DNA of 64,000 nt from Cymodocea nodosa. Lineage: Eukaryota > Streptophyta > Magnoliopsida > Alismatales > Cymodoceaceae. Both the position numbers and the translations under genes were made by a program. The notes under the pieces are model-generated. The model was not told the origin of the DNA. It did not search any database and saw only the letters and a program-made list of their open reading frames with translations. The stretch is taken from NCBI GenBank assembly GCA_036874045.1, contig CM072336.1, positions 27,045,501-27,109,500 of the forward strand. Direction: 5' to 3'. Of the stretch, positions 39,050-55,200 are shown one piece after another; the stretch's first letter is position 1; every line of letters begins with the position of its first letter.

Positions 39050-39592
39050 TTGAGATTCACGGGTAGATTTTAATATCAATGCGCACTTTGATCTGATTAT
39101 TATCATTATCATTTCTGCAGAATGCCTGTTTCGTTGGTACAGCTGTGCAGTCAAAATGCCAATCCGCACTTCCTTGGTCCCACCTCCACGTGGCCACGTC
39201 ATGCCACTTCCATGTCTACACAGCCTCGCACGTTCGTCTTTCTCCGACCCACCCTCACCGTCCGATCGCCATCCCACCGCCCGCCAAATCTGATGCCCCC
39301 CGCCTGTGATCCAAGGACCCTGTTGTTCGATATTACAACTTTGCCACCGCAATTCGCTCGATCCGCCAGGGCCATTTCCGTCGCCGATAAAACCTCACTC
39401 CACCCCTTGTCTTGTCTCCCCCATCGCCACCACCACCACCTCCTGGTCTCCTCTGCTCACTGCTTCGCCTCTTCTTTGTTCTCGTTGGAATCTGGGCGTT
39501 GGTCTCGTCATCCTGGGGTTTCGCATTGGGATGAGGAGGAGGAGGGAATGGTGATGGTGGGAGGAAGAGGTGAGGAACTTGGGTTGCAACAG
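39050..39592 (+). promoter_or_regulatory. GC-rich promoter and 5' UTR of the PP2C gene
   Basis: Composition changes sharply from AT-rich to GC-rich near 39110, with pyrimidine-rich patches (for example CTCCCCCATCGCC) typical of plant core promoters and leaders. An open frame continues upstream of the chosen start but has no family similarity. A second in-frame ATG at 39548 would add 15 residues. Confidence 0.45.
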
Positions 39593-42500
39593 ATGAGCGC
39601 GGTGCATCGGGACGGGGGAGGGAGGAGGCCCCCGCTGGTGCCGCTGGCGACGTTGATCGGAAGGGAGCTTCGGGGTGGCGGTGGGGTGGGTGGAGGTGGG
39701 GATAGGCCTTCTGTCAGGTACGGGCAGGCGGCGCTGGCGAAGAGAGGAGAGGATTACTTTCTTACAAAGCCCGATTGCTTTCGTGTCCACGGCGATCCCT
39801 CTTCCTCGTTCTCGGTCTTCGCGGTATTACGCCGTTTTTCCTTCTCTCGGATGGGTCTCTTCTTTTTTCTCTCTTTTTGGGGGAATGTGTGGATTTTCGT
39901 GTATGTATGTGTGTAGATCTTCGATGGGCACAACGGGATTTCCGCCGCCGTGTTCACCAAAGAACATCTTCTGGACCATGTGATGAGTGCCATGGAACCG
40001 AGGATCGGGAGAGAAGAGTGGCTTCAAGCACTCCCGAGGGCGCTTGTCGCTGGGTTCGTGAAGACTGACATCGAGTTCCAACGGAAAGGCAGGAAGTTGA
40101 TGCGTAATTTCGGTTTCCTTTACGATTGTATGGTCTTTATCTTTGGACTTAAAACCATTGTGATCTGTTTGTAACAGGGGAAGCTTCTGGGACTACGGCT
40201 ACGCTGGTGGTGATTGACGGATGGACGGTAACTGTTGCATCAGTTGGGGATTCCAGGTGCATATTGGATTCCCGAGGTGCAGTTACTCTTTTAACCGTGG
40301 ATCATAGGCTTGAAGAGAATGTTGAGGAGAGGGAGAGGGTTACGGCTAGCGGAGGAGAAGTTGGCAGACTTAATATTTGCGGTGGACAGGAGGTACGGAC
40401 TGCGGGATTACTAATTCGTGAAGATAATGTTAAGGATTTCAGATTCACCTTTCTGTTTCTAGGTGGGTCCTCTACGCTGCTGGCCTGGTGGTTTGTGTCT
40501 CTCAAGATCGATTGGAGATATGGATGTTGGGGAATTTATCGTCCCTATACCACATGTTAAGCAAGTCAAGGTTCATATTGCATTCTTAGTTCATGATGTT
40601 AAGTAAATATAATGCTGAGAAATTTTATTTTTTGTAAATCTTCTATATTTTTTCATTTTTGTTATGGTTCTAGCTTTCAAATGCTGGTGGAAGGTTAATT
40701 ATTGCTTCTGATGGCATATGGGATTCTCTGTCGTCTGAAGTGGCAGCAATGTGTTGCAGGGGTTTGCCTACTGAGCTTGCTGCTAAGCTAGTTGTTAAGG
40801 TATTTTTGAACGCTAACGTCCCCAAGCATTTCACTTGATTTCTTTTCCCATTGAGCCTTACTGATGTCATTGTTGGTCGACCTTACTGATTTAGGAAGCG
40901 TTGAGAACAACTGGCTTGAAAGATGACACTACCTGTCTAGTTGTTGATATTATTCCTTCTAACCATTCTTCCGCCCCAGCAACACCAAAGAACAATCAGA
41001 ATAAATTAAGATCTATTATTTTTGGGAAAAGGTCTCATAGTACTAACAAGCTATCTGATGGGGCTGTTGAGGAAATTTTTGAGGAAGGTTCGGCAATTCT
41101 TGCTGAGAGGTATATTTTTTTTCTTTACCTAAAGTACAGAAGCTATAGGCACTGGATAGATATTTATTAACTTTTCTTCGAGTACCATGTTCTTGTGGTT
41201 TATTATCTATCATTATTTATTGCATGTGTCTATGCACTTGTTATCTTCCTTTCGAACTAGCAAATGTTTTAGTAGTTTTTGCACTATTTTGTGGAATATA
41301 GTGGTTTTTGGAAAGGAGAGTTATAGTTGATTGAAGTTTTATTTGCTTATGAATACACTTAGTCTTGCTACTTAGTATCATATAAAACTATTTACAGTAG
41401 AAATGTCTGCTTTATAGTCTTGTATGATAGTAAAATTTTTAATGAATGTTGTAAAATATTGCTGTCTTATATTTGGAAAGTAATTTATATAAAATATTGT
41501 GCTAGTAGTGAATGGAAAAAGACAAGGATACACAAACATAGTTATAAAATGGTGTTATGGGAGCTTGCTTGCTTTTCTCTTAGCTTTGTTTCCTTCAATT
41601 CATTGAAATTGGGACTGATTGATACATAGATGATGAAATGCATCTGTTGTTAACCTTGTATGTTTGAATTCTTCGTAACAAAAGCTTGACTGGGCCTCTC
41701 TCTTCAGTTATGGGACTGATTCTTTCCTTTCTGTCTGTAAGATTTTGGAGTAAGACTGTCTTTCTTGTCAGATCATTTTAATCTTTAGCTGACATTTTCA
41801 TAAAACTTCAACCTATGTACGTGGGAACAACTCCTTGAGCAATTTGGAGACATCATACCAAAATAGGTGGTCATATGTCAACCATACCCTATCCTATTCC
41901 AAGAGGTATTATTGATTCAATTGATCATAATCTCCAAAGACAGTTAACTCCAATACATGCACTTCTTGAGGACCATGTTTTGCATGTGAGCCAAACAACT
42001 TGGAATAGAGGATGAACCTTTGTAAGGGACTTGCTCAAAGAAAAGTGATGATAGACAGATATTGGCTCAATGGTAGCAAATGCCTCGACATGGCTAAACC
42101 TAGCCTTCAGAGGGTCTAGCATTCATCATGTTGATTGATCCTTCATGATGCATAAGTACTTCTCCAAACCCAGCATTAAAATTTTGTAAGTGACTTTGAC
42201 TCTGTATCATTCCAATTTTATCAGATGTCACCGAAGAGACATACATAACCATGATTCATCCATAAACAAGGGAGGGGCAAACCACCCTGCTATCTTGAAC
42301 CATTATACGAAAATTTTGTGCATACCTCGGCTCATCCATAAACAAGGGAGGGGCAAACCACTTCACTATCTTGAACCATTACAGGACGAGATCAAGACAG
42401 GCATGTGTTTTTAGGTTATCTAGTTATACTCTCATTTTGAATACCTTCTACGTCAACCCTCCCTCACTACAAGTGAGTACCATCTAGAGAACTTGGCCCA

Positions 42501-43969
42501 ACAAACTAACAAACTCTGGTCATTGATAATCTTTACCATGACAACTTTTTAACTGACACAAAATTATATTGGAATAAGATTGCTAGTATACAAGGTGCAA
42601 TTGTCTAGCAGCTCGAGCAGAGACGCATGCAATAATCATCAATCTTGCCATTTTCTCTTTTGTTCAATTTGGGTGGGCACCTTTGGACTTCTCCAAACTG
42701 TGGTATGACAATCCAAGCATACTACTTTCATTCATACCCAAGTATATAACATCTGTCTGATATCAAACCCGTAAGACTGCAACTAGCATTATTGCAAAGG
42801 GAATCTTTCTACCTTTTAGTCTTTGATCACTTTCAGAGAGTGGCACCTCAACGCATTTTCTTATGGTCCTTTAAACAAGGTCGACTGTAATTGACCTTGC
42901 TTATAAAATGATATTTTTTTGGTGGTTCCTATATCATTATCTTTAGTTTCGACCTTGCTTATATGAGCTAAACGATAACAAACTTATATTATGATATTTT
43001 GTAACACTTTTATCTTCGAAGTTAGTTTCTACTTGACCTGGCTATAATTGTATTTTAAAAAGGATATTCTACTTTTCTTCATGATATGATGTTGAAAAGT
43101 TTTCCAGAAACAAATGTTTGTCAAAATTGCGTGATCCTCATCATGGGTTAACATAAGCCAGTATTTTATGAAAAACACTTGTAGTCTTCTAAGATGCAAA
43201 TGTAAAATGGTCTAAAGAGCTGTTAGTGTTGTAACGTAAACTTAACATAAATTGTCTGCTTAACAAGAAGAGGTTATCAAGTGAAATTTCTCTTGATCAA
43301 TCTATACGAATATAAACGCATTGCACGGCTGAAAATAGAATAAAAATGCATTGACATAAAAATGCACATCCAACACTGAGATACTAATGGAGTTGTATTT
43401 ATCAATATTTATGAAACTTGATGTCCACATTGATATTTAACATCTTGCAATAAAGTATATCTAATCTAATAAACCATCGTATAAACCAGATCCATACAAG
43501 AAGATGCTATAGATTGTGGTACTACCATCAATCTTCCAAGAGATCGAAAACATCCATCCTAATGCTATCTAAATTTTTTGCCGGCAACTTTAAATTAAAA
43601 AAGGGAATTATTGAAAAGATGGTTTTCCCCATTTTTGGCCCTTTAAATGTTTGTTTTTCCATTAAAAAATGGAACCATAAATCGACTGCTTGTTCGTATA
43701 ATAATTGGATTTGGATCATTACAACTTCAAAGCCCTTGTTTTACAGGTTGGGTGCTGAACATTCTGCAAGATCTAATTCTGGGCCAGTCAGGTGTGCAAT
43801 CTGTCAAGTTGATCAAACTCCAGATAATGGTTTATCGATTAACGGAGGAGGCTCATATATCTTGCACTCATCTAAACACTGGGAGGGCCCATTACTCTGT
43901 GCGGATTGCCAAAAGAAGAAGGATGCCATGGAAGGGAAACGATCCAATCGGCAGATGATAACCTCGTGA
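39593..43969 (+). CDS. Protein phosphatase 2C (PPM family) with a C-terminal Cys-pair module
   Basis: A Mg/Mn-dependent Ser/Thr phosphatase of the plant group that includes Arabidopsis At1g47380 and rice homologues. The exons are 39593-39823, 39917-40088, 40178-40392, 40463-40570, 40674-40799, 40895-41109 and 43747-43969, giving 429 residues. Metal-site motifs are GEDYF, DGHNG (80-84, the usual variant in this group), GDSR (158-161), SDGIWD (254-259) and DDTT (294-297). The tail has CAIC (372-375) and CADC (407-410), a likely zinc ribbon, then KKDAMEGKR, conserved in the group. Exon 2 is ended at AAAG/GC, because a GC donor keeps the family spacing; the alternative GT donor at 40104 inserts five residues. 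The start is the ATG that gives the family's short N-terminus. The last intron is 2.6 kb. No signal or membrane segment is seen. Confidence 0.92.
42256..42381. repeat. Two direct repeats of about 50 bp, 76-bp period
   Basis: The copies at 42256-42305 and 42332-42381 begin TCATCCATAAACAAGGGAGG and end CTATCTTGAACCATTA, nearly identical throughout. They lie in the large last intron of the PP2C gene. The surrounding 1 kb looks like inserted repetitive DNA, but I could not assign it to a class. Confidence 0.85.
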
Positions 43970-45662
43970 GACTGTTATTTGTGCCTTGTCTTAACTCAGT
44001 CCCATCCATGATGACTGGTTTAGTCAGTCTGCGTGTACAAAATTAACGGTGAATAAGGTGTTCTTGTCTCCTTGCTGGTTGCGTCCGTCATTCCCAAGTT
44101 TCTGTTGATTTCCTCGGCCAACTAACCGGGTTGCTCTTATCTCAGGTTGTGATAATTTTGGTTGCTAACCGCTTGAAATTTGTAATGAATGCTGTTGACA
44201 TAGTAACATTTTTCTAAAGTACGATCTGTTTGTACGACGTACATGTACCACTTGTACGACGGGTGCCGGATGTATGAAAACAATATGGTGTGATGGCTTT
44301 GCATTCGCTCTTGAATAGAGTTAGATCGAATTTGCATCATAAGCACTTGGTATCAACAGGACCCGGGACTTCTATATTTGATCTTTTTCTGTAAACTGTA
44401 GTTTTGAAAGCATCCATTGTAATGACGAACCATTGTAATTGACAAGCTTCCATTATATTAAACAAAACTTTTCTTTTGATGTCTTAAGTTATTCTTTTGG
44501 GATAATCTTCGACCCTCGTTCTTGAGACCACTGTTTTAAAAACGGACCTGAACTGGGTAGTTTAGCTGGATTAATAAATCGGAATCGGTATGGAATTCGG
44601 GTTTTCTAAATTGGTTGAGGCAGTGGCTCAATTTCCTCGGCTCGAATTGTCAATTCAAATGATATAAATTTCAAATAGGGTTCTTTTAATAAAATTTTTG
44701 AAAAATGATCTTGACAATATCATTAAAAGTTAAATGTTTAAATTTTAAAACTAAAAAAATTAAAGCTTAAAGCTCAAATTCAAAATTAAAAACTCAAAAT
44801 AATTGAGGAATTTTATAAGTATATAGGTTAATACATGCCAGTTTTATTTCAACTATTAAGCATTCTATTTTAATTCATTAGGCGTTAATCTATGCTTATT
44901 TCTTCAAGAAACTATCGAAATAATAATACATTTTTGATCGATTCAAAGTTTAAAATGGTTTAAACTATTTATAAATTTCAAAAGATGATCAAATTGATTT
45001 CTTGTCTGGTTACGTCTTTAAATTACCCGTTTGATCATATTTTGAACCGAAAACCAATGATCTTCTAATTTAATATCCGGTTCAATTTCAATGAGATTAC
45101 TTGAGGGCACAATTGCCGGTGTACGGGTGTAGATCCCACCAAATTCTCTCTCAACATGTAGCGGTCATCATCTTTTATATACGAGCACACTTACAAACCT
45201 TCAAACCAAATGTTCTAGTTTACAAGACATTATTATATGTATGTATGTATGGTTAAAAGGAAAATGATCATCAGATGGTCTATACGATACATTGTCCCAC
45301 AAGTCATTATTATTCTGGTACGAACTCGTTGAAATTGATTAAATGCCGTTGGCAAAAAGCAATAAAGAAAATAGGTTACATACTCTTGCAGACAAAGGAG
45401 CATTCTCAATGTTTTACAAGTTAAATATACAACACATTCTTCTACGCTTCCTTATTATTATAAATGCATTCCCCACACCAACACATACGATCACACAGCC
45501 CGTTAAAGAAGGGGATGATACTTTCCTTCGAGGAATAAAATAGAACGACCTCAGAAATATTCAGACGAAATGCTCTCAGCTTTTCGGTCTGATGGTTCAT
45601 CTAAAAGGTTCCTCCTCAACTGCCATTTTCTTCCTCAGTACCCGTGAAAGTTTTTATATTCT
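43970..45662. other. Convergent intergenic region between PP2C and Di19 genes
   Basis: This holds the 3' UTRs of both genes (PP2C from the left, Di19 from the right). No other gene is seen. The stretch 44530-45080 contains phrases such as GGACCTGAACTGGG and TTTGAACCGAAAACC that suggest an old repeat, not classified. Confidence 0.5.
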
Positions 45663-48600
45663 TCACAAGTTTTCAGGAAAAATCGTAGAGAACAGCAAAT
45701 GCCGAGCGAACTCAGACCTCTGAGCTCTCTCCTTCTGATCCTCGTCGGACAATGATGGTTGGGAGCTGCAAGTAAACAAATTCATCAGTCACATTGAGAG
45801 CAAGAGATGAGATCACGTAAGGCAGAAACATCGAGCTGATGTTCGAACAATGATATATGAAAAAAAATACAAGTTCGTCTCACCCGTGGGAAAATAACCG
45901 TTGAATACTTAAAAATGCCTAGTCAACAACGGAAGAAGTTTCAGTTTGTTAAATGGTTCACTGAATGATCGGTTGAATCATTTTAAACCAAAGCTAGTGA
46001 CCTTTCAAACTTCCAATTCGATTTCAAAAACCATATCCAAAATATTAAAATATTGCGAAATGAAATTAAAAACATGACAGATATCAACATAGTTAAACCG
46101 TCGTGCTTAACTAATACTTTCACTGTAGATGCCTAAGTACTCCAAGGCCATGGGCATTTGAATGTCCAGCCTTTTATTCTCTTTTAATCTGGATCCTGTT
46201 GGATCTGAATATGGATGAATCTATGCTATTTAAGAGCTGCTTTAGAGTTTCTTAAGTAGAAGATTTTTTGTTCTCTTCAATGTTGAAAAAAAAGAGGGAA
46301 AATGGACATTATACAGATTAGAAATTAAAACATTTTTTAAATGCCAGTTTAAACAAGCGTCATTTTAAAAATGGTATACATAAAAAATGAATAAATATAA
46401 TTATGCTTAAAAATAAACCAACATCACAATCGTCATAATAATTACATAAAATAAATTATAATTATATTACATGCAATAAATTTAAAAACGAACTTTTATA
46501 ATAGGCAAGTATTACTCAAGAATAAATACTTATTTAAAACGTAAATAAATATATATAACAAGTACAATCAAAGTTAAACAATAAAATAAGTATCAAAATA
46601 GCAAATTTATATCAATTAAAGTAACCCAAAAGATGAAATATAAAAAATAAAAAATGATCATTCAAACCATCCAAACGAGTACAAAGGTCATTTTTCTTAG
46701 AAAAATAGGAAAGGATTTTTTAAATGGAAAAAATGAGTATTTTTTCCAAACTTCCTTTCCTCTCTTTTTCCAAAAAGCAAAACGGATTGTGCTGAAAATA
46801 ATTTAAACTGCATTTAAATAGCCATTTTTCAAAATAATGGTTCTCTTCTTTCCAATTCCAAAACTCCAGCAATGGTGCCAACTTCAACAATACCTTAGGC
46901 AAGTTCTTCCATTTCTAATTCAACTTTAATGTTGTTTGATGCTTTAGTTATCGTCTTTTTAAATATTAATTATGTTTGGTGATTTTCATGTTTATTTAAA
47001 CTTAAATATTAAGTTTTTTATTTATGAAATGTGTGTATGCATGTATATATATATAATTATAAAAAAAAATAAAATAGTGCCTAAGTGGCCAGGTGCTCAA
47101 GTACCCAAGACCATCACCTTGGCATCTTGATAGCTGGTGCCTTAATAAGTGTAGGATGTACAGACTTGATTCATGATTATGGTAATTAATAGGAAGTCAA
47201 CTTCGACATTGGTTGGCGAGCTTTTATTTGCAGGCACTACTTTGGACTAGAATATCAGTGCATTATTACATCATTTTATTAAGATTCACATCTAACTCCC
47301 ACCAATAAACACAAACCATGCGCCCATTGAGAATGCATCTACTGTGATGACTTTCAGGATAGCAACCATTCAGCTATTTAAAGTGATTAAAAAAAGAACT
47401 ACTCATCCTTTTCTTCTCAGTAAGTTGAGCTACTCATCTATTATTATACCATTTTCATTTAAGATTCACAATCAACTTCTAGCAATCGCCACTAACCTCA
47501 GGTCCTTAGAAAACCATAATATGTACATCCACAGAAACTAATAGACACCTACCAGTTGGACGCCTAATATTGCATGCATGCAACTCTAAAACCAAGAGGT
47601 GATTCCACTACTAACCATTTCAAGAAAGTGAGCTTTGAATATTATGAGCTTCAACATATTAACCTTAAAGATCGTCTATTTACGAAGGTGTCATATTTAC
47701 TATTACTTGTGTCTTATGTGGTTTATGTGCTGTATGTTGCATGTGTATATACATAAGATGTACTGTAAATCTTCCCAGAAGTTTCTTCTTCTGGTACTAT
47801 AAAAGCAACTCTCTTCTCCCATGTCCAACAGGGAAGGGAGTATTACACAGTCTACCCATTTCCAAATGGTATTAGAGTCCATGTGGGCAACTCCCAGCAA
47901 TGGCCTCTCCTCCTACAGCCATCACCCTCCAGTTACCACCACCCTACACATTTCAAGCCCATATCAATACCCCAAACTCTGCTCGCAATGTCAGATCATT
48001 ACCATAATGTATACGTGCAAATGGGTCAGCACTCAAACCTCAATTGGCCTCTATGGGAGAAGAAAGAGAGGATCAAATATCAACTCCTTTCATGCTTTTC
48101 CATAGTGCTATAGAAATACTTGAATGACGAAATAAAAATCATGTAATAGAGAAAGTAACATGCGACCATGCAAACTTCATTTTGAAGCAAAAACCACGAA
48201 GAGTAGGAACAAAACTACCCAAAAGACATGCTAGGTGGACATGCTACACACTTTGAAATCATTCTTCATATATTGATGTGGTCCAATGGTCATGTATATA
48301 TTTGTCAAGAAAAAGGAAGGGTTTTCCGTAATATTTTGTAGAATTTGTTAAAGACCAAAGAGATGATCCAATATGAGAGAACAAAGAGAATAAAGAGATT
48401 ATCAAATATCAACTCTTTTCATGCCCTTTCATAGTGTTTTGGAAGAACTAGAATGACCAAACAGACAAATCATGCATCACAAAAAGTAATGTGGGACAAA
48501 TCTTCATCAATATCAATATCACTCCACAAGAGAACAAAGAAATAATCAAATATCAGCTCATTTCATGCCCTTTCATAGTGTTTTGGAAGAACTTGAATGA

Positions 48601-51600
48601 TCAAATGGACAAATCATACAACACAGGAAGTAAAATGGGACCACACATTCTTCATCTTGAAGTGAAGACCATGGATAGATGCATCAAAAACTAACTCTCA
48701 GTCACACTATGGGGGATGATACACATCTTTTGGAATCACTCTTCAGATGGGATTCAATGGTTGTTGATGATGTTAAGATATTTGTGAAGGAAAAGGTAGG
48801 TTTTTCATAATCATTTGTCGAATTTCTTATCCATTGTCTTTTTGGCACTTTGGACAATGTTAATTTGATTTTTCATAATATTCATTTTCCCTGTTCCTAG
48901 GAAGAATATTAATGTCAAAGGTCCTTGAAACATACAATTTTAACCTAAAAATACAATGAATTACAAAATAAAAACTAGTTGTATTACACATCCCAGATGA
49001 GGGTACATCTCATGGAATTAGAGGTTAAAGATAGCTAACACCTTGATGCTAAATAATACAAAATATCTGCAATTTGATGCTAGAGACAATAACAATATTT
49101 TTTTTTAAAAAGTCAGTCCATTGTGGCATACCTTTCTTGAGCATCTTGGACTACATTTTTGCTGTCTAAAGTTTCTTCATCAATCGGAAGGGACTCAACA
49201 TCCTTTGCTGAGTCAGTTGATGACGCATTGTAGATAAATGATGAGAGTAATGGATCTTGAATGGTACTTGAGGGAGGAGGCATGTAGGATGATCCACTAA
49301 GAAGGGATTGTAGATGTCCTTCTCTCAATTCCTTTTTCAGCAAGGAGAGTGCAGAGTAAGATCCTGACGAACCCCTGCGAAATTTTCTCCTACGTTGCAT
49401 GTAATCCTTAGTAAAGGAATTCAATGAATATTTTCCATAACACATTAAATAATGAAATCAACAACAAAAGAAAGTGAACATTACGGGTCTGTTCAATAAC
49501 GATTTTTTAAACCATCACATTAAAAAAAACTGCCATTTTAAAAATAGTTTCATAACTCAGTTTTTTTCATTTAACAATTTTAGTTTAAATTGGAACTTTG
49601 TTTCCAAAAACAATTGGGCATATAAATAATACATCTTGTAACAAATATTGAAAAACAGTAGTGCATTTCCATACACTAGTTGAAATAATCATTGACAAAT
49701 ACCCCTTAAGTAGTTTAATTGACCAAGACTGCAAAGTTTCATACTCAATACTAAGGGTTTATTTGTGTATCAGGAAAATGATTGAAAAGAAAATTAAGGA
49801 AAATGTGGAAAACAAAGAAAATAGAAAATAACGAAAATTAATTTCAATTTCGTCATTTCCTGGTGTTTATGCACTTAATGAAAAATGAAGAAAATTAAAA
49901 TTTGGGTATTTGTACACTAGATAAAAATTAAAATTTTGATATTTGGACGTGGTGCAAAATGACAAAAATTTAAACCTTACATATTAAAACTAGTCATATT
50001 AAAAAATAAAACTACAAATTATAACATTCATCTTTTCATATAATTTATTTTTTATTTTATTTATATCATTTTTTCCACAATCTCTCTCTTTTTTTTTAAT
50101 CTATTCATTCACCATTTTTTTCTTCTTCTTTCTTCATCAATCTTCTTCGTCCACTACAGTCAGCAACTCTTCCTGGAAGATCTCTGGCAAGGTTGTGTGA
50201 AGATGCATCACTGCTCCAACAGGTGGCTATGGAGGAAGAAATATGATGTATAGGTGAGGTGGAAGGAGCTCAAGGGGCTATGCAACGATGTTGCTACAGT
50301 TGAGATTTGAAGGATCAACAAGAGAGAGCAACGTGCAAGAATGCCGTGCAAGTGAGGAGAGTAGCACAAAGAGGAGACACATACAATGGCGATGCTAGAA
50401 GTATCGTTTGTGGCAAGCACAAGAGGGTGGAGAGGCATGGACAAAAAATGATTCCTTGGGTTGTGAGGTGGGAAAATTAAGAAAATCATCCTTTTATATG
50501 CTAGCAAATGCCAAATAAAAATTTCCCAATTTCTAAAGGCACAAATGCTAGGAAAATCTAAAAAACAAATTTCAAATTTTCCTTTTCAACATTTTCTGCA
50601 AGCACAAACCCCCCTTAAGGTTCAAATCCTAGTGACAATATTCTCTTACCAATTTCAAAAAACAATAAAACATAATGAATTTGATCAAAAATTAGACCAC
50701 AGCACAAGGCTTTTGGTCAGTGTAACAAAGTGTGTAAACAAGACACCATCTACCATGAAATAGATATCTTCTACCATAAGAAAAGCTTTCTTTAGATAGA
50801 TACAAATAAGGATCATTATGAACGTGATTCATACTCTTGAATAAGGTTCAAATCTTGATATTAGCATATCACCACAAAACAAGATAATGACTATCATCAT
50901 GATACCCAAAATAAGCAAGCAACAAAAGGATATCTTGAAGAAATTGCCATGTTGTGTTGTTATATGTCCTACCAAGTCCATCCCAATTCTGGCTGCACAC
51001 ACAGGACATACCTGCAAAAGTATAAACATCAAAGCAGTGAGAATGGACAATAGCATATAGGGAAAATTTACCAATGAAAGTTCCAATAGTACACAGCAAT
51101 ACTTCCATAAATAGCAAAATTATTTCCTAAGATTCAAGCTCATCAACTTTAAGCCAAAATGGAGCAACTTTACCATTGTATCAATCTTCACCCCCACCAT
51201 GATAAAAAGAAGAAACAAGATACAAAGAAACAACATGATAAGATCATAAGAAAAGATTTTCAAAGTTAACATTCTCATCAATACTAATTAAATGTTAACT
51301 TACTCATAGAAAGAAAGGACAAATCAACTGACTAGCATCAAAATATGACAGTAAATAGCCCTAGACATATTTTGCATACGTGTTGAGTCCATCAGACCAT
51401 TGGAGAAAACAAAAAACAATACAAAATAGACACTTACAGACCATAAACAATAAACATGGCATCTACAAAACTAGATGCATGCACAGATATATGAAGTGAA
51501 AGCGGGGTTCCAGTGAAACAATCTTAAACATCTTTTATAAAAAAGATACAAATTTCAATGCAAAAAAAATTAGAAAATGCATAATCTAAATGAGTCTATG

Positions 51601-53214
51601 TTTTTTTGAACAGGTGCAGTTCTGAAGTGTATTACCTGAAACCAGAAAAAAGCATACTCCAACTGAAACCCAAAAAAACTGAGAATAGGCTCCAAAAACC
51701 CGATGAATCAAATGGAAAACACCAAGGGCATGATTGGTTGCACATAATCCACATATAATGTAACGTAATGCAATTGAATTATATGTCTTAATTAGATTAC
51801 AATAATTGAGTTTTTATTATTATAAGCTTTGGAATTTATTATAAGAAATTAAGTCCATTGAGACACTACTCAATTAACTACATATGAGTTTAAAATGTAA
51901 AATTGATTCTTTATATAATGTTATAATCAATTTATGTATGATTGTTAAACATTGTAATTTGACTTTATCCTATAATTTAATTACAATACATTAAGATTAC
52001 GATTGACCAAATGAAACCTAAAAGTAAGTTGTTCTTTCTCTAAGGGTGTTGGATTTTAGAACCCATCCACATCCCCCACTACAAAAATCCAAAACAAATG
52101 ACTCAAAACAATAGAAATTTCTTACGATTTACAAGAATTCACCCCAAAAGGTCAACAAAGCGTGTCTATGCTATTATATAGAAAAAAAATGTGATTCTTC
52201 CTTTTTCATTTTTCCTAATTGCCTTTTACTAAAAGTCATATCATATCATATATTATAGACATTTATGAGTCCTTTTATACTTTCGTTTATATTAATTTAA
52301 CAATATTACCATATTATTTTTACAAATTTTTATTACAAATCTACCTATATTACTTTCACGACTTATTTGTACTTTTTATGGATATGAATTTTTCCTATTT
52401 ATTTCTATGTTTTCTTATGTTATTTTGTATTTTGTAATTACAAATTTGCTATATCTTTTTTATCAAAATGTTCATACTACTTTTATATATCACCAGTGCT
52501 TAGTACAGAAGTTTAGGCTAGTTAGGGAAAAAAATGCCTAGACCATACTATGCACATGAAGTATTAGTGTACCTGTTGTGAGACTATCAACCTCTCATAT
52601 AACCAATAATCCGATAAGAAGAAACTGGTCAGACACGAGCGGGAATCACCCATACGAAGGGTAAACAATTCCTTTGTCGCATCAGAAGTAAAAATAGCAA
52701 ATGATTTGAAAAAGCCAACGGGAACAGGACCCGAACACTTAAAAGATCCACACTTTACAAGGTTCCCGAAACAATCTCCAAACAAAAAACGCCATCTTTT
52801 GAATAGATATTGCACACAAAAATCCTATAAAAAATGAACTTTTGTCTAATTGTCAAAGTAAAACCTTTCATCCAGACAAAAGCAAGGAGAAAGTTACAGT
52901 ACCCCGTTCTTCGCCTCCAGCGGGTGCTCATCGTCGATATGGCAGCAGAGGCCAACAACATCGAAATCCTCCGTACAAAACGGGCAAGGGAACTCGATCC
53001 TTGAATCGTCATCCCCAATCTCCATCTCCTCAAATCCAAGATACAGATCTACGCAAAATAAAGACAAAAATCACATTTACAACAGAAAACCAGAGAGAGA
53101 GAGAGAGAGGAAGCGCGATCACAACCAATCCATACCGAATTGATTCTGAAGGGAGTTCTGGTGGCGCTTGGACGCGGTGGCGGCAATACGGCTCCACGAA
53201 TCCGACGACGCCAT
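45663..53214 (-). CDS. Di19-type (drought-induced 19) zinc-finger protein
   Basis: Plant Di19 proteins are small nuclear factors linked to drought, salt and light responses and often targeted by calcium-dependent kinases; this is family knowledge. The exons are 53214-53136, 53048-52903, 51011-50934, 49400-49132 and 45765-45663, giving 224 residues, normal for Di19. The N-terminus MASSDSWSRIAAT and YLGFEEME match monocot members. Two atypical Cys2/His2 fingers follow: C48, C51, H63, H68 in FPCPFCTEDFDVVGLCCH, and C77, C80, H91, H96 in VCPVCAARIG...HITTQH. The basic RRRKFRRG stretch is a likely nuclear signal. The conserved C-terminal part runs from ALSLLKKEL to DPLLSSFIYN and ends RSEFARHLLFSTI. 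Introns 1, 2 and 4 are GT-AG, while intron 3 is AT-AC. Introns 3 and 4 are large and contain repeats. Confidence 0.93.
47540..48110 (+). mobile_element. 5' end of a copia-like retrotransposon in a Di19 intron
   Basis: A TATAAAAG at 47798 is followed by a short transcribed leader. A primer-binding-site-like TGGTATTAGAGTCC then lies at 47867-47880, close to the usual TGGTATCAGAGC of copia elements. An open proline/serine/histidine-rich stretch starts at 47881, like the beginning of a gag. The rest of the element is missing. It runs antisense to the Di19 gene; the 5' limit is approximate. Confidence 0.5.
48061..48645. repeat. Three diverged direct repeats of about 115-120 bp
   Basis: Copies lie at about 48061-48177, 48378-48497 and 48530-48645. 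Shared phrases are ATCAAATATCA, TTTCATGCCCTTTCATAGTG, GAATGA and a final AAGTAA-TG-GACC. Copies 2 and 3 are closest. They lie in the last intron of the Di19 gene, just after the copia-like leader, and may be eroded internal repeats of that element. Confidence 0.8.
49401..50933 (-). other. U12-type AT-AC intron of the Di19 gene
   Basis: The 5' splice site on the minus strand reads AAG/ATATCCTTTT, an exact match to the U12 consensus ATATCCTT. The intron ends GGATTAC/ATG. A branch-site element TTCCTTTAC lies with its presumed branch A at 49412, 11 bases from the 3' end, inside the narrow window required by the minor spliceosome. Joining here restores the frame between GNFFK and MQRRRKF, as in other Di19 proteins. 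No GT-AG alternative gives this junction. Length 1,533 bases. Confidence 0.93.
53095..53111. repeat. GA microsatellite
   Basis: A short AG run within the 87-base first intron of the Di19 gene; on the coding strand it forms a CT tract near the 5' end of that intron, just after the exon 1 donor. Confidence 0.85.
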
Positions 53215-55200
53215 TGCTGAAGACCTCACCGCCGAACACGAAAACACGTGCTTCGATCGACTAAAAGAAATCGGATATCGGAGTTCTCGGAGCGACGATG
53301 GAGCCCTGGCGGTGGAAGGAAGACGTAGGTAGGCGGTTCCGAGAAATTGCAGGTAACGGGGGGAGTGAGAGAGACAACCGAACCTCCGCCGTGTTTGTTC
53401 TGATCTCTGGTGGCATTCCTTTGGAGTTCGCGGGAAAACGAATTGCCCCTGAAATTCGTTTTAATTTACGAAAACAACCTTGCCAATCGCCATTTCCAGA
53501 CAGGACAAGTGGGACGGGAATCTTTCGAGAAAAATATGAACCGTTTGTCAATGAAATTTTGATCGATTTTAGTCGTAGTTATATAATATTATTAAGTCAT
53601 AAATCTTGTATTAACGAAAACATACTTACATTGTCAGTTTACTACGATCTAGGAAAATTCATCGCAAATGACTTATATAATAGGTAAAGAATTCATCTTA
53701 TATCAAGAAAACTACGTCAATGTCTCCTATCAGTGATGTAAGATTATCTGTTCTCATGTCCAAATAATCTATATCAATTTCAGATTATTTAGATATGAGA
53801 TCAAATAATCTTGTATCGATAATATAAAATATTAACGTAGTCTTCATAAGAGATAAACTCTTACTACCAAACTAATTTTTTACGATGGACTGTTCCTTAA
53901 GTATTTTTTTATAATTGTATTTAAGAGTATTTATTCTATATTTTTAAGATAAACACTGTACGTGTTATTTGGTTTTTCACACACACACATATATATATTT
54001 TTTTTTTTTAAGAAAAATGGTTCTATATACACCTATAGTATTTTGCTGTAAATATCTATAATCTATCTTTCAGATTATTCTAAATAATGTAAATTACACC
54101 CAAAATTTAAAAAATATAGAAATGTAATTCATTTATTCGGCCTATCTGTACTTATATAGAAAATGCACCTGTTTCTGTCTCTTTTTTTAACTTTTAAAAG
54201 ATTAGCAAAATATAAAAGTATTATCTAAATATTTTAAAATTTCAAAAAAAATGATCCTGACATATAATCTTTTAAAAGTAGTAGCAGTTAGATATATTTT
54301 TCTTAATTTAAAGAATTTAAAATTGAATATTTTTATGTTTACATTCGATCATGGATTTTTAACCAAAAAATAATAAATATAACTTAAATTAATATTATAA
54401 TTTATATATAGAAGACAATAATAAAATAAACAAACAAATTTTGGGTCCTGACATTTTGATTTGCTGAAAATTTTTATTTTTCTTGTTTAAAAATAATAAA
54501 TAGTAATAAAGTTAAAAGTAATGACAATAATAAAATAAACAAACAAATAATAATAATAATAATCAAGATGACATTCATGCATTAATCAACAACAAAAATA
54601 CAACAATCAATAAAACACAAATTTTGGAGCAATAAATTGAAAAACCTACAAAAATAATAAACTGACAATTTTTTGGATTTAATTTTTAATTAATTTATTG
54701 AAATTTCTAGATGAAGGGATTGGTTTAACAAATAAAGCAAAATTTCTTTCGAAATTCTGGATGACCGGAAATTTTTTTCTTTTTTGATTGATTCCTACAT
54801 TCAGAATTTTCAAAAAAATAACGAAAATTTCGATACCATTCATCGAAATTTTTTATTCACTCATCAAAAATTCTGATTAATAGTATAGAAAGAATTTGAT
54901 TGACATCCATGCTAATAATAATAATAATAATAAATAAACAAAAAAAATAATGTTATAAAATTCCTAATGTTAGCCCACGGGCTAACGTTTTGCATCTTTT
55001 GCGTCGGCCCGTAGGCTAACGACGTGTCATTATTCTTTATATAAGATAATAAAATAAGTCACATGGCGTGTCATTATTCTTTATATATATTTATCATCAC
55101 ACCTTTTATTTATTTATATTAATATTTTCATATTTATTTATTATTTTTTAAAGCGATATTTCCAATGATTCCATTATCATCAGCAAGACATTAAAGATGT
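53215..55200. other. Di19 promoter side and AT-rich spacer
   Basis: The first 300 bases are GC-rich and should contain the Di19 leader and core promoter. A plus-strand open frame of 129 codons there (53298-53687) has no domain and seems to be by-product. The rest is AT-rich with simple repeats. Confidence 0.5.

Follow-up and report, generated by a model that had tools for sequence, protein, structure and literature searches.

Does the third intron of a Di19 gene in Cymodocea nodosa, which begins with AT and ends with AC, belong to the rare class removed by the minor spliceosome, or are these ends a coincidence lying close to ordinary GT-AG splice sites? The gene lies in a stretch of 64,000 nucleotides from contig CM072336.1 (the window; unless another contig is named, positions below are counted from its first letter), and the genome searched for its relatives comprised 374.6 Mb in 28 contigs. 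AT-AC introns make up 4.8% of Arabidopsis U12 introns, as quoted in PMC5932401, and introns with such ends are described as difficult for ab initio gene finders (PMC5716242). For the Di19 family, defective splicing of the U12 intron of Arabidopsis Di19-2 has been reported in u11-48k plants (PMC4892727), and Di19 has been named among the genes requiring U11/U12-31K, with Di19-2 among the transcripts assayed (PMC3422263). In a later report on U11/U12-31K knock-down, Di19-2 splicing was not significantly altered (PMC5853960). A U12-class intron in Di19 is thus already published for Arabidopsis, and the window intron is a well-formed further example.

Results

Structure of the window Di19 gene

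The window contains a complete Di19 gene on the minus strand, running from 53214 to 45663, and its spliced model has five exons and a product of 224 amino acids. All five exons are open and the spliced reading frame has no internal stops. Its four introns are the typical Di19 structure, reported for 31 of 36 genes (PMC8954995); introns 1, 2, and 4 have GT-AG ends and intron 3 has AT-AC ends. The product belongs to the Di19 family, as both Pfam domains exceed their cut-offs: zf-Di19 at residues 45-97 (4e-25; 88.2 bits against a cut-off of 27.5) and Di19_C at residues 119-219 (3.8e-27; 95.2 bits against a cut-off of 29). The last exon (45765-45663), which carries a conserved C-terminal motif, was missing from the initial annotation of this locus. 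The features are listed below with the evidence for each.

53136..53214, minus strand: Di19 exon 1, coding part, with the ATG at 53214 (spliced model)
52903..53048, minus strand: Di19 exon 2, first zinc finger (spliced model and PF05605 match)
50934..51011, minus strand: Di19 exon 3, second zinc finger, terminating in TTCTTCAAG (spliced model and genome zf-Di19 search)
49401..50933, minus strand: Di19 intron 3, AT-AC, U12-type, 1533 nt, phase 0 (spliced model, joint enumeration, paralogue introns)
50926..50933, minus strand: U12-type 5' splice site ATATCCTT (8 of 8 consensus positions; same in paralogues C3 and C1)
49755..50617, no strand assigned: dispersed repeat in intron 3, approximate ends placed by eye (absent from the C3 intron; genome matches)
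49411..49419, minus strand: U12-type branch site TTCCTTTAC, with position 49412 as the putative branch A (sequence; this A lies 11 nt from the final base of the intron)
49401..49402, minus strand: 3' splice site AC of intron 3 (spliced model and motif scan)
49132..49400, minus strand: Di19 exon 4, encoding the basic region and the larger part of Di19_C (spliced model and Pfam)
45766..49131, minus strand: Di19 intron 4, GT-AG, 3366 nt (spliced model)
45663..45765, minus strand: Di19 exon 5 with the stop, C-terminal motif ERAQRSEFARHLLFSTIF (tblastn with the end of the C9 paralogue as query; spliced model)
C9:10275681-10276923, minus strand: the remaining Di19 gene of the four, whose intron at this place is GT-AG (genome zf-Di19 search)

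Splice signals of intron 3

Read along the minus strand (50933-49401), intron 3 starts with ATATCCTT and finishes with TTCCTTTAC-TAAGGATTAC, and its junctions are CAAG/ATATCCTTTT at the donor and AATTCCTTTACTAAGGATTAC/ATGCAACG at the acceptor. The sequence ATATCCTT is the consensus 5' splice site of U12-type AT-AC introns. The branch site agrees with the plant U12 consensus TTCCTTRAY (PMC5932401) at eight of nine positions, with T replacing R. The initial annotation had placed the intron at 49401..50933, and these coordinates and its motifs proved exact to the base, including a branch site 11 bases before the intron end (A49412, with the T deviating from the purine of the consensus) and a terminal AC (49402-49401). 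Also borne out was its proposal that removal of the intron rebuilds the Di19 protein between the second zinc finger and the basic region, yielding the 224 residues with both Pfam domains. The spliced joint reads ...HITTQHGNFFK/MQRRRKFRR..., and the DI19 chain of PDB entry 9qt9 (Arabidopsis) spans it without a gap at HGSLFK-LQRKRK.

Searches for U12 and U6atac, which with U11 and U4atac make up the four minor snRNAs considered, each found a gene in the genome (91 bits for U12 and 88 bits for U6atac). A segment of this U12, GAGTAAGGAA, is complementary to the window branch site with a single mismatch, the T in the purine place, and by eye a segment of U6atac, AAAAAAGGA, complements TCCTTTT within the donor. 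In the established mechanism, U11 and then U6atac would pair with the donor ATATCCTTTT, U12 would pair with TTCCTT and bulge A49412, and the AC lying 11 nt downstream of that adenosine would serve as the 3' splice site.

The same intron in paralogous genes

A genome search with the zf-Di19 profile returned 16 matches. Eight exceeded the cut-off and formed four two-exon pairs, by which we define four Di19 genes (the window gene and three sisters, designated C3, C1, and C9); the other eight were weak. Three neighboring weak matches under the cut-off, at C22:726598-727833, perhaps represent another zinc-finger gene. All four Di19 genes have an intron at the same codon boundary and in the same phase, and in three of them it is AT-AC and in one GT-AG. 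Intron 3 measures 356 nt in C3 (C3:1624869) and 124 nt in C1 (C1:25747134), in phase 0 in both, and both have the junctions AAG/ATATCCTT and TTAC/ATGCA, with the eight donor bases identical to those of the window. Their branch sites are TTCCTTGAC in C3 and TTCTTTAAT in C1, and both introns resemble that of the window in having the putative branch A at a distance of 11 nt from the intron end. Opposite U12, the C3 branch site has a G-U pair at the purine place and a mismatch at the last compared position, and the C1 branch site has an A-U pair at the purine place with two wobbles and one mismatch elsewhere.

The intron of the fourth gene (C9:10276923) occupies the same place and phase and has the form GTATTGTT...TTGCTAACG...GTTAG, which reads as U2-type, with GT-AG ends and U2-like signals. 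No first exon of this gene was found in the stretch of C9 that was read. The initial annotation had held that an orthologue with a GT-AG intron at this position would refute a U12-type reading. Such an intron does exist in the paralogue C9; because C9 has a GT and an AG of its own with U2-like signals, while in the window none of the eight frame-keeping GT-AG pairs described below gives the conserved protein, it represents a difference of type inside the family, and the reading of the window intron stands. The AT-AC intron was inherited within the Di19 family, and the C9 copy most likely turned into a U2-type GT-AG intron. We infer the direction of this change, from U12 to U2, from the general rule given in PMC2831892, which counts 5 AT-AC cases among 79 single-subtype clusters containing both types.

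The window gene and C3 are similar beyond their coding sequence. Between window 39135-53285 and C3:1624000-1633900, the Di19 gene and downstream stretches are collinear in 9 of 12 blastn rows (for example, window 41200-39473 at 78% and 44216-43711 at 77%), with three short rows elsewhere; because the matches keep the same order, the two loci resemble copies of one duplicated segment.

Length and condition of the window copy

The window intron exceeds that of C3 by 1177 nt, and the dispersed repeat accounts for most of the growth from ∼0.36 kb, the size in the closest paralogue, to 1.5 kb. With window 49750-50620 (871 bases) as the query, at least 51 matches were obtained in the genome, the query included, when 40 of 99 candidates were scored. 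Apart from the query, the matches (at least 50) are partial and 66-82% identical, except for three short pieces whose identities are 90, 95, and 100%. By eye, the repeat (49755-50617) bears imperfect inverted ends. A separate part of the intron, window 49483-49740, is mostly missing from C3, opens with GGGTCTGTTCAATAACG on the plus strand, and may be a second inserted element. The AT content of intron 3 is 68.9% in the window, 70.5% in C3, 70.2% in C1, and 69.2% in C9.

These features raise the possibility that the AT-AC intron is real and that the window copy is nevertheless poorly spliced and decaying, with C3 as the working copy. In addition to carrying the repeat, the window intron has a T in the branch-site purine place, where an A is reported to aid plant U12 splicing (PMC5932401, citing Lewandowska 2004), and the Arabidopsis U12DB contains few U12 introns longer than 1000 bp, with 6 described (PMC5932401). 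However, work with CBP20 mini-genes found splicing to be more rather than less efficient when the U12 introns were longer (PMC5932401), so length alone may not harm splicing. The CBP20 intron resembles that of Di19 in being AT-AC, in a position conserved between a domain core and an NLS-bearing tail, and in varying widely in length (76 to 2733 nt across plant CBP20 introns), although the genes are unrelated and nearly all CBP20 branch sites have an A at the upstream purine (PMC5932401). Furthermore, the window gene keeps all five exons open, and its protein is identical to that of C3 at 195 of 224 aligned residues with dN well below dS (dN 0.059 and dS 0.44 by NG86; dN 0.067 and dS 0.285 by YN00), so that both genes look constrained. 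We therefore consider a failing window copy improbable.

Uniqueness of the coding joint

Alternatively, the major spliceosome could remove the intron through shifted GT-AG sites, with the AT-AC signals being coincidental. The motifs by themselves do not argue against coincidence: the two strands of the window together hold 10 copies of ATATCCTT, and when 200 dinucleotide shuffles of the window were scanned for ATATCCTT with TTCCTTNAY, 6-11 further bases, and AC following it at the distance of an intron, at least one such pair was present in 56. Because so many shuffles contain it, the motif pair alone is within chance and not significant, and the case therefore rests on the unique coding joint and on recurrence in two of the three paralogues.

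To define that joint, all frame-keeping pairs of five dinucleotide types were enumerated across a donor range and an acceptor range of 180 bases each. There were 100 such pairs (40 AT-AC, 29 AT-AG, 15 GT-AC, 8 GC-AG, and 8 GT-AG), and the only one to yield the HGNFFK-MQRR joint was 50933/49401. Although eight GT-AG pairs around the joint thus preserve the frame, and C9 has a GT-AG intron in the equivalent position, all eight either lose conserved residues or gain intron-coded residues absent from the paralogues; with the conserved protein given by 0 of 8, shifted GT-AG splicing was rejected. Both the ATATCCTT donor and the AC acceptor are, moreover, repeated in C3 and C1. A fallback on GT-AG sites when the minor spliceosome fails is conceivable, as the U12 intron of fly Kcmf1-a is reported to be partly spliced in minor-spliceosome mutants (PMC7644725), but as the normal route of removal we regard shifted GT-AG sites as very unlikely. 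Removal of these AT-AC ends by the major spliceosome, as in sodium-channel introns, has precedents that have G at +5 (PMC2831892), and it scarcely merits consideration for an intron that has C at +5 inside a complete U12 donor and whose U12-type branch site lies 11 nt from its end.

On the evidence of sequence, then, intron 3 of the window Di19 gene is almost certainly a genuine AT-AC intron that would be taken out by the minor spliceosome. This was the central proposal of the initial annotation, and it remains the best reading, with stronger support from the paralogues than from the motifs on which it was first made.

Discussion

Our study adds an example to the record of U12 introns in Di19. 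Arabidopsis Di19-2 belongs to the same family, has a U12-type intron, and has been studied in minor-spliceosome mutants, whereas the intron described here comes from another plant, is 1.5 kb long, and bears a repeat. The terminal dinucleotides and position of the Di19-2 intron were not found in the accessible portions of PMC3422263, PMC4892727, and PMC5853960, nor did the accessible open-licence literature yield a family-wide description of the AT-AC subtype in Di19 genes.

The likely outcome of failed splicing can be read from the four genes. Translation into a retained intron would meet a stop after 34 codons in the window gene, after 16 in C3, 11 in C1, and 4 in C9. A transcript retaining intron 3 would encode a product with both zinc fingers but without the basic region or the C-terminal motif, and would probably be subject to nonsense-mediated decay. 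At-Di19-5 has been listed among genes under alternative splicing coupled to decay (PMC3591102), and Di19 among alternatively spliced genes conserved in cereals (PMC4578763), with the intron unnamed in the available text of either source. The sequence itself shows the signals, their position, the frame, the conservation in paralogues, and the U12 and U6atac genes; the actual splicing of the window intron, its rate, any decay, and any effect on expression are inferred, and so the suggestion of the initial annotation that splicing efficiency could limit expression may or may not hold.

The initial annotation described Di19 as a stress-response regulator, which is incomplete, as DI19 was also reported in 2025 to be the plant counterpart of KCMF1 in the UBR4/BIG ubiquitin E4 ligase (PMC7618180). 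According to that report, the plant UBR4 complex contains DI19, which is strongly homologous to human KCMF1 in the C-terminal pin. Among PDB chains, the window protein matches DI19 (9qt9_C) with an E value of 1.4e-54 and KCMF1 (9qws_C) with an E value of 9.7e-6. Its C-terminal motif corresponds to the KCMF1 pin; the match of this motif to the KCMF1 end in the PDB search is weak, a second stretch of 5.1 bits that is not significant alone. By analogy with the Arabidopsis complex (PMC7618180), the window DI19 would be expected to bind BIG.

The KCMF1 gene itself has an AT-AC U12 intron in fly (CG11984), with a U12 orthologue in human; Table 2 of PMC2831892 numbers it 3 of 6. The animal counterpart of DI19 (PMC7618180) thus also has an AT-AC U12-type intron, although KCMF1 has a ZZ domain, which DI19 lacks, and the intron is the third of six in KCMF1 and the third of four in DI19. 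The codon interrupted in KCMF1 was not found in the accessible portions of PMC2426677, PMC2831892, PMC2952598, and PMC7644725, and no link between the Di19 and KCMF1 introns was found in the accessible open-licence literature. That the KCMF1 intron is number 3 of 6 makes a position shared with DI19 likelier. It is tempting to speculate that the two descend from a single intron that was already present before plants and animals diverged and has been retained in the gene of this UBR4/BIG ligase cofactor, coupling the supply of the cofactor to minor-spliceosome output in both kingdoms; we hold this as a tentative idea that is rather less likely to be right than wrong.

Within a single genome, four sister genes offer the AT-AC intron in three lengths (124, 356, and 1533 nt), each with a branch site of its own, together with a GT-AG version, a set with which the factors limiting minor splicing in plants can be tested directly. 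Should the DI19 and KCMF1 introns share a codon position, the intron would date to the common ancestor of plants and animals, and if the link is true, it would be an independent mark of the relation between KCMF1 and DI19 reported in 2025.
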